Program-made: the position numbers and the translations under genes
Notes under the pieces: generated by a model
Told to the model about the DNA's origin: nothing
Databases searched by the model: none
The model's input: the letters and a program-made list of their open reading frames with translations, nothing else
Source of the DNA: Hydrogenophaga sp.
GTDB taxonomy: Bacteria > Pseudomonadota > Gammaproteobacteria > Burkholderiales > Burkholderiaceae_C
Length of the DNA stretch: 64,000 nucleotides
NCBI RefSeq assembly: GCF_030651625.1
Contig: NZ_JAUSCF010000024.1
Coordinates: 1-64,000 of the forward strand
Direction: 5' to 3'
Shown: piece by piece, positions 42,844 to 45,032 of the stretch
How positions within the stretch are numbered: position 1 is the first letter of the stretch
How the letters are laid out: each line of letters begins with the position of its first letter

Positions 42844-43025
42844 GGTGGGGATCCGGGGATAGTGGCGGGGGTGCGGGTGGATTGGCCCGCTCCCGGCTGG
42901 GAAACCCTCGATTTTACGGGGCGTGCCTTGCTGGCTAGCGCTGAGGATTCCGTTGTCTGTGTGTTTTGTCTTTCGTGGCGTGCCGGGTCTCGCCCCGGCG
43001 GGCGAGTTACCTTTCTTTGCGTCGC

Positions 43026-44315
43026 TGTATGGACCGGAGACATAGGAAACAGGTGTGCGGAGACATAGGAAACACTTTTCTTGCGCGAACAGCGCAAGGA
43101 GAGCCCTATGCCCTGGACACCGAGAGCCCTGATGGACATCAAACGCGAGTTTCTGGAACTGGCCCTCCAGGAGGGTGCCAACCGTCGAGAACTGTGCCGC
43201 CGCTTCGGCATCAGCCCCAAGACTGCTTACACCCTGCTGGCTCGGCATGAGCAGGAAGGTGTTGCCGCCCTGGTGCCACGCTCAAGAAAGCCGAACAACA
43301 GCCCCTCGCGCAGCTCAACCGAGGTGGAGCGCGCCGTGGTTGAGCTGCGTGCTCAGCACCCCGGCTGGGGTGGTCGCAAGATCGCGCGGCGCTTGAGCGA
43401 GCTCGGGCTTCTCAACGGGCCACCCCCGAGCACCGTCACCTCCATCCTGCACCGCCATGGCTTGATCTCTTGCGAGGCCACCCAGGCCGCCCAGCACTGG
43501 ATCCGTTTCGAGCACGATCAGCCCAATGCGCTGTGGCAAATCGACTTCAAGGGCGACTTTGCCACCCACCAGGGCAAGTGCTATCCCTTGACTCTGCTGG
43601 ATGACCACTCCCGTTTCAATCTTGCGCTGCAAGCCTGCGCGAATGTGAGGACCTCCAGCGTGCAACCTCATCTGGCAGCTGTGTTCCAGCGCTACGGCCT
43701 GCCTGCACGGATCAACGCCGACAACGGTGCGCCTTGGGGCAGTCCGAGCTCGCCGGGGCAAAGCTTGAGCGAGTTAAGCATCTGGCTCATACGTCTTGGC
43801 ATACATGTGAGCCACAGCGCGCCCTACCACCCCCAAACCAACGGCAAGGTCGAGCGCTTTCACGGCTCCTTGAACACGGAAGTGCTGGCTGGGCGCAGCT
43901 TTATCAGCCTGGAGCAGGCGCAAACCGCGTTCACGCACTGGCGAGGTGTGTACAACCACGAGCGCCCGCACGATGCGTTGAATCTTCAGACGCCAGCCAA
44001 GCGCTACCGAACCAGTCCGATTCCATATGCGCAGACACTACCGGAGATTGAATACCCCACGGGGGACACCGTGGTCACGGTGAGCTGGGACGGGCAAGCC
44101 AGCTTCAAAGGGCACAAGATCAAGGTCTCCAGCTCCTTGCTCAAGCTGCCCATCGCGTTCCGAGCAGATCACGAGCGCGATGGCGTCTACGATGTGTTCT
44201 TCTGCCACCAGCGCTTCATGCGCCTGGATTTGAACCGCTTGACCACCGCTTCCTGAGACTTCGAGGTGTTTCCTATGTCTCCGCACACCTGTTTCCTATG
44301 TCTCCGGTCCATACA
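43026..44315 (+). mobile_element. Complete IS481-family insertion sequence
   Basis: ~50-bp terminal inverted repeats TGTATGGACCGGAGACATAGGAAACAGGTGTGCGGAGACATAGGAAACA; flanked by 6-bp direct repeat CGTCGC (43020-43025 / 44316-44321). Confidence 0.92.
43108..44256 (+). CDS. IS481-family DDE transposase
   Basis: [24 protein letters not shown]; rve domain [36 protein letters not shown]. Confidence 0.94.
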
Positions 44316-44706
44316 CGTCGCCAAAGAAAGGTAACCCAAAGAAAGGCGACCCTGCTGCCAGTGACCCCTGCGCTGCGCTCCGGGGCAACCTGTGGTGCTC
44401 GCAGCGGGCGGGGTCCGTGCAAACTCGGCTATCGCCTCAAACATGCACGGCCTTTATTCCGCCCGCTGCTGCGCTCCTCGGCACCGGCAGAAGGGGCCCG
44501 AATGCGGGATCGGGCTCCCCCTCGAACAAAAGCCCCTGCATCAGGAGAAGGCCCTTTCTGCGCGAGCCGAGGAGCGCAGGCCTGGGCGGATGAAGGGCTG
44601 CGCATGTCTGAGCGCAGCGAGTTTGCGCAGACCCCGCCCTGGGTGAGCACCGCAGGGTGCCCGTAGCGCAGCGCAGGGTCTCGCGCAGCAGGGGTCGTTT
44701 TCATTG

Positions 44707-44738
44707 CCTGCTTTCTTTGTCGACACAAAGAAAGCAGG
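44707..44738. repeat. Nested hairpin in right arm of the palindrome
   Basis: CCTGCTTTCTTTG-TCGACA-CAAAGAAAGCAGG, 13-bp perfect stem. Confidence 0.85.
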
Positions 44739-44825
44739 TGCGCCGCCGGGCGCACATCCCGGCACGCCACGAAAGGAAAAACACAGCGACAACGCAACAA
44801 TACCAACCCGAGAGCCACCCGGCCC

Positions 44826-45032
44826 TCAAGAGGGATCCGCAGCGGGAACAGGCATCTTCCGCGCCGCCTCAACACACTCCCCCAACACCCTCGCATCCCC
44901 CACCTGATTCGCCAGCAACAAAATCAGGCGGGCATTGAGCAGCTCGGAAGCCTCCCGACTCAACCCGACGTGCGCATCCATCAGCTGCTCGTAAAACCCG
45001 TCGGCATCCTGAAAATGCGGTGTCGTTTTCAT
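44826..45032 (-). CDS. DUF2783 domain-containing protein
   Basis: 68 aa, DADGFYEQLMDAHVGLSREASELLNARLILLLANQVGD; overlaps the FAD monooxygenase stop/start. Confidence 0.82.
   Translation of the reverse strand: MKTTPHFQDADGFYEQLMDAHVGLSREASELLNARLILLLANQVGDARVLGECVEAARKMPVPAADPS

Follow-up and report, generated by a model that had tools for sequence, protein, structure and literature searches.

A long imperfect palindrome, split by an insertion sequence (IS), lies between the DUF2783 gene and valS, the latter on the minus strand, in the 64,000-nucleotide stretch of Hydrogenophaga sp. DNA analyzed here (the window), and the question it raises is what kind of element this is and what has kept its hairpins paired. 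The palindrome itself is confirmed at the site given in a preliminary description of this DNA, and all of the coordinates check. With the IS and one copy of its target site duplication (TSD) removed it measures 548 bp, and a local alignment of one half with the other half's reverse complement scores 202, whereas 300 shuffles reached 34 at most. The ORFs that overlap the element are without a Pfam match, in agreement with the earlier view that no credible ORF is present. A TAAAAT motif recurs before valS in the genus relatives that were compared, and the end of the element lies ~33 bp upstream of it.

What is conserved in the element is a unit of ~75 nt at each end, in which a GC hairpin is followed by a second hairpin (hairpin 2), as listed in Table 1. 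The loop of hairpin 2 pairs with sequence located further 3', thereby forming a pseudoknot, and a second purine tract (R2) mirrors the purine strand (R1) that in hairpin 2 faces a pyrimidine strand (Y). In the left unit of the window the loop bases GTCGC and the initial C of R1 are complementary to GGCGAC at 44345-44350, a candidate pseudoknot, and the mirror runs over AAAGAAA, which is a symmetric tract, while the right unit scores 64.4 bits against the covariance model of the terminal unit. The preliminary description had placed the first hairpin of each arm correctly, and the compensation that it saw in hairpin 2 is real, as four lower-stem pairs differ between the arms in both strands with pairing kept. 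The giant palindrome is not what has been conserved: many elements have lost most of one arm, and both the spacing of the units and the center of the palindrome vary between copies, with the terminal unit retained. Similarly, the stem of hairpin 3 is variable in other copies and the motif at its tip (GCAAACTCG...ACATGC) recurs. Two observations go beyond what had been described, namely that the element is one of many copies whose conserved part is the terminal unit, and that each arm has a putative third purine strand and a pseudoknot partner.

Table 1. Features of the element and its surroundings. Positions are those of the window, except in the last line, where contig and position in the same genome are given.
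Feature	Position	Strand	Basis
Putative valS promoter motif, CCCCGTAAAAT	42911-42921	-	sequence motif
Whole palindromic repeat	42951-44794	.	self-alignment, coordinates, dispersed copies
Outermost inverted repeat of the element, CGTTGTC...GACAACG			
Left GC hairpin module, GCCGGGTCTCGCCCCGGCGGGCGAG, two alternative stems	42982-43006	+	covariation, variants
Left hpA stem, GCCGGG/CCCGGC	42982-42999	+	variants GTCGGG/CCCGAC, GCGGGG/CCCCGC
Left hpB stem, CTCGCC/GGCGAG	42989-43006	+	6/6 pairs covary
Left hairpin 2, pyrimidine strand Y, GTTACCTTTCTTTG	43006-43019	+	
Left hairpin 2, loop CGTCGC (left TSD copy of the IS)	43020-43025	+	
IS481-like insertion sequence, ends TGTATGG...CCATACA	43026-44315	+	50-bp perfect TIRs
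Right copy of the IS target duplication, CGTCGC	44316-44321	+	
Left hairpin 2, purine strand R1, CAAAGAAAGGTAAC	44322-44335	+	
Left mirror tract R2 (putative third strand), CAAAGAAAG, with pseudoknot tail GGCGAC	44337-44350	+	mirror rule, tail pairing
Left long hairpin 3, GCAGCGGGCGG/CCGCCCGCTGC, apical GCAAACTCG...ACATGC	44401-44469	+	inverted-repeat search
Right putative third strand with tail, CAATGAAAACGAC, one mirror mismatch	44694-44706	-	
Right hairpin 2	44707-44738	-	inverted-repeat search
Right hairpin 2, R1, CAAAGAAAGCAGG	44707-44719	-	
Right hairpin 2, loop TGTCGA	44720-44725	-	
Right hairpin 2, Y, CCTGCTTTCTTTG	44726-44738	-	
Right hpB stem, GTGCGC/GCGCAC	44738-44755	-	
DUF2783 gene flanking the element	44829-45032	-	PF10932, E 5.7e-27
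TM_ECO matches near units	C7:90231, C7:94907, C22:149025, C30:138963, C34:137921, C38:19824		

The IS that splits the left unit belongs with IS481, as it has an rve transposase with an HTH (ORF 43081-44256; Pfam rve, rve_3, and HTH_32), terminal inverted repeats (TIRs), and a short TSD. The 6-bp TSD coincides exactly with the left hairpin 2 loop, a hint that the IS may have entered this loop while the hairpin was extruded. A single genomic copy of the IS does not allow a target preference to be claimed.

Covariation was computed on 127 distinct units in an alignment (A2) that was fitted to a model of hpB and hairpin 2, with the pseudoknot left out of the model. Standard pairs are formed by 93.3% of the cells in these 127 units, versus 42-55% when the partners are slid by one to three columns, and the covariation score is 0.42 versus 0.05-0.07 for the slid partners. 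The proportion of paired cells is 90.6% in hpB, 95.6% in hairpin 2, and 89.7% in the pseudoknot, where all four pairs of the loop-tail helix covary and fully paired loop/tail variants include TCGCC/GGCGA, CCGCC/GGCGG, CGGCC/GGCCG, TGTCC/GGACA, TGCCC/GGGCA, CGCGC/GCGCG, and CTGCC/GGCAG. The lower-stem pair of hairpin 2 in columns 40-89 of the alignment is C.A or A.C in many genera. Compensation can also be followed in place, since between orthologous copies in the genomes G014 and G340/G330 the stem GCCGGG/CCCGGC is exchanged for GCGGGG/CCCCGC and TGT/ACA for GGG/CCC. The preliminary description had taken the differences between the arms as a sign of selection on nucleic-acid structure rather than decay, and had named stem mutations without compensation as the observation that would speak against it. 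What was found across the 127 units is two-sided (compensatory) change at 22 of the 23 pairs, and the claim is thus upheld over more than 100 distinct units.

A further regularity concerns the second purine tract, which was not covered by the HMM used to find the 102 distinct asymmetric units, as this model included only the GC hairpin and hairpin 2. The tract is an exact mirror in 94 of these units and a direct copy alone in none, and when the tracts were re-dealt among the units (5000 trials) the mean was 36 and the maximum 49, although related sequences are not independent, so that such shuffle counts are not probabilities, and shuffles and E-values alike leave shared ancestry in. Counted by genomes or loci, the rule holds in ~86 and has eight exceptions. 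Examples, with hairpin 2 given before the tract, are AAAGAAAA and AAAAGAAA, AAGAGAAA and AAAGAGAA, AAGAAAA and AAAAGAA, and AAGGAAA and AAAGGAA. Read from the sequences, the mirror rule points to selection for what would be an intrastrand triplex-type fold.

We propose that the element in the window is a copy of a non-autonomous, dispersed, palindromic repeat that is MITE/REPIN-like in habit and has its ends conserved as an intrastrand triplex-type pseudoknot, maintained as a handle for mobilization, and we consider this explanation to be probable. The repeat is dispersed, lineage-specific, and non-coding, with no coding evidence, and it is kept by compensatory change that includes the mirror and the pseudoknot; the formation of a triplex by the ends of the units is what we infer from these patterns. 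The element would have two inverted arms, each running from the GC hairpin through a pseudoknotted hairpin 2 with its mirror third strand to the long hairpin 3. If one strand were freed, be it as lagging strand, in a transcription bubble, or as a transcript, each end could fold as an intrastrand triplex-type pseudoknot, in which Y and R1 would form a Watson-Crick hairpin, R2 would be the third strand, with an orientation opposite to that of R1 (A on T-A and G on C-G), and the loop-tail pairing would lock the third strand in position. The folded end would be the part that is maintained, most likely as a handle for a trans-acting factor that mobilizes the element, and the fold might be recognized by such a factor or by RNA or DNA machinery of the cell, and replication or transcription nearby could be affected as a by-product. 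Counted against this explanation are the single mirror mismatch in the right unit of the window and the ability of inter-copy conversion to move a whole hairpin between loci.

An alternative, which we regard as possible yet doubtful, is that selection acts on opposite-strand RNA. In RNA triple-helix pseudoknots such as those of telomerase RNA, preQ1-II, and SAM-II, the major groove of stem 2 accommodates loop 1. The opposite-strand RNA of a unit (5'-TCGCC-UUUUCUUUG-...-CUUUCUUUUG-GCGAAG-CAAAAGAAAG-3') would be an H-type pseudoknot of matching topology, its U-rich loop 1 contributing U.A-U and C+.G-C triples along the major groove. There is no sequence kinship with these RNAs and no Rfam match; a search of Rfam with the window and seven family loci gave nothing at the gathering score, only sub-threshold miRNA hairpins. 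Since the element is palindromic, transcripts from both directions would terminate in the pseudoknot module, which might, as a tentative proposal, protect or define the 3' ends of mRNAs. The mirror rule fits such an RNA equally well. Furthermore, the non-Watson-Crick cells of hairpin 2 comprise 51 A.C and 5 G.T, with A.C seen in 29 of 59 genomes or loci versus five for G.T, which favors the RNA because A.C on the strand of the unit is a G.U wobble on the opposite strand, and purine-motif triplexes are impossible in RNA while pyrimidine-type ones are possible (Holder et al., PMC4666352). However, the A.C excess rests mainly on one pair (columns 40-89 of A2), the asymmetry is absent from the pseudoknot helix (5 G.T and 7 A.C) and reversed in hpB (30 versus 7, mostly at one end pair), and in both of the annotated solo copies (Burkholderia and Chitinibacter) it is the purine strand that is transcribed by the flanking genes. 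Common to the DNA and RNA readings is the broader notion of a triple-helix pseudoknot that is conserved by covariation across Beta- and Gammaproteobacteria and acts in cells, either as a single-stranded DNA end recognized by a transposition apparatus or, in RNA read from both directions, as a triple helix by which the 3' ends of mRNAs are protected or defined, and this we hold to be plausible, if somewhat short of an even chance.

Pairing might also be kept with no selection at all, by quasi-palindrome correction (template switching) and gene conversion, in which case the element would be debris. Nested imperfect palindromes are the classic substrates of such correction, blocks of sequence are common to many copies, and the one-armed copies represent arm deletion. 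Mutation, template switching, hairpin repair, and gene conversion yield direct or inverted copies rather than mirrors, and the mirror in each unit tracks that unit's own hairpin 2 even where the two arms differ (L373 and L154). Thus the mirror rule is the strongest sign of selection on a fold; it has already placed the debris explanation under strain, and we consider it unlikely.

The covariance model used for counting units was built from the ~75-nt terminal unit, and with it at least 24 units are found in the Hydrogenophaga genome itself and ~120 in G019. The many copies in the former include full palindromes as well as single arms. The repeat is carried by 22 of 61 sampled genomes of the family in a DNA search and by 57 of 229 sampled genomes of the GTDB class with the covariance model. 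Among the matches listed are members of the Burkholderiales, Neisseriales, Thiobacillus, and Rhodocyclales and a few Cardiobacteriaceae, Pasteurellaceae, and Moraxellaceae, with Variovorax, Polaromonas, Curvibacter, Herbaspirillum, Undibacterium, Collimonas, Neisseria, Silvimonas, and Chitinilyticum among the genera. Copies in Pasteurella and Variovorax have quite different interiors and retain both ends. In a Pasteurella multocida record (L408 2494-2930) an A/T-rich version of the element directly follows dapF, with both terminal units present and the GC hairpin absent. Plasmid records gave 13 matches, and the five annotated copies inspected are all intergenic; a search of phages gave no match. 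Two metabolic genes flank the element at one locus in G014, G340, and G330, where eight genus relatives have a gap of 0-80 bp, and the element is absent from those genus relatives in which the DUF2783 gene adjoins valS. Hence the insertions are intergenic, wherever checked, and lineage-specific, and the suggestion of a MITE/REP-like non-autonomous element is backed by copy number and by presence or absence at orthologous sites.

Sites without the element were found, but no clean target duplication, and flanks and empty sites are too diverged to give an exact empty site with a TSD. Aligned boundaries across genomes gave no common target duplication, and the genomes examined gave no mobilizing enzyme. 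The repeat is without an ORF family. An autonomous version between widely spaced inverted units was considered and rejected, as the ORFs examined there encode a methyltransferase, an M90 peptidase, a DNA glycosylase-like protein, and unassigned proteins, with no transposase. Inverted pairs of units 0.9-1.8 kb apart enclose genes in three records (L389, L392, and L393), which are for lipoprotein-like proteins, a methyltransferase, and an M90 peptidase and are possibly cargo. An alignment of the G014 copies (eight full and nine others) addresses whether a solo half was the founding unit, and this is ruled out in G014, where the far terminus CCGGCTGGGCCTTGG... is retained at the end of several one-armed copies, which makes the halves arm deletions.

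The repeat has inverted-repeat ends, no coding capacity, and multiple copies, as expected of a MITE, and like MITEs and REP/REPIN/BIME elements it is non-coding, inverted-repeat, dispersed, lineage-specific, and often truncated. It differs from them in being larger and highly structured, and neither a TSD nor a parental transposase or RAYT link was found in the boundaries, empty sites, and inter-unit ORFs examined. Several copies in G014 lie within a longer repeat of ~820 bp that ends in CTAGTGTGG...CCACACACTAG (for example, L164 3870-4690), as they would if this were the MITE of a DDE transposon with TIRs, such as an IS630-like one with CTAG targets, but the outer arms are missing from other copies, among them the ones that are conserved in three species, and no terminus or TSD is common to the genomes. 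We therefore judge this origin quite unlikely, and the longer G014 repeat looks like hitch-hiking in one lineage. Mobilization as a REP/REPIN element by a RAYT (Y1 tyrosine transposase), which the inverted, paired, spacer-separated, intergenic, and non-autonomous units and the one PF01797 protein of the genome might suggest, is very improbable and was rejected, as PF01797 is near-universal at one per genome with or without the repeat and thus does not track it, G021 has 17 units and no such protein, no unit lies near the RAYT-like gene of its own genome, and the units are far larger and are without a GTAG-type head.

The closest counterpart of the repeat is among the intrastrand triplex motifs, which bacteria have long been known to contain. 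Their mechanism and origin were reported to have remained unclear (Holder et al., 2015; PMC4666352). Class II motifs consist of a pyrimidine block, a purine block, and a reverse-Hoogsteen purine block (Y-R-RH), the last of which serves as third strand in antiparallel orientation to the purine block, with A over A-T and G over G-C (PMC4666352). This order, with a putative antiparallel third strand, was found in the same 94 of 102 asymmetric units. PIT/BoxC (TM_ECO) likewise has the class II layout on one strand and is high copy, intergenic, and patchy among relatives (PMC4666352), and by analogy of layout the A/T-rich repeat is kin to these G/C-rich motifs. It differs in its A/T-rich stem, compared with the G/C-rich consensus CCCTCNCCCN3-6GGGNGAGGGN3GGGNGAGGG, in loops that are mostly 6-8 nt, in the added covarying loop-tail pseudoknot, and in having its units as inverted pairs that end a palindrome of ~300-800 bp, and its support comes from covariation rather than biophysics. 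The ITxF loop setting is 1-6 nt, and both loops of the left unit in the window are 8 nt with a 7-nt stem counted; units of the type TTTTCTTTG[CTTCGC]CAAAGAAAA[GTAAGC]AAAAGAAAG fit the ITxF loops when one end mismatch is allowed. TM_ECO copies also occur beside or inside units of the repeat. The Hydrogenophaga genome has 26 exact consensus matches, none of them in the element of the window, and six are within 200 bp of one of the 24 units, where ~0.07 would be expected by chance, although the copies of a composite repeat cannot be counted as independent. One copy, from Variovorax (L407 2440-3270), has an inverted pair of TM_ECO-type motifs at its center. The BRE repeat (Hot et al., 2011; PMC3110155) is similarly intergenic, at ~90 bp, and is reported from Bordetella, Polaromonas, Delftia, and Acidovorax, but unlike the repeat it is often in tandem, the two being set against each other by description. 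A search of the open literature by sequence gave no earlier description of the repeat; a MITE has been noted in Polaromonas JS666.

What the repeat supplies is a genetic signature, in many lineages, in which the bases of the putative third strand change together with the base pair that they would contact, next to a pseudoknot that covaries. Such a signature makes the importance of triplexes in the cell directly testable by compensatory mutants. Moreover, the repeat may lead to an undescribed mobilization system, since elements with such ends have reached ~120 units in one genome although no transposase is evident.
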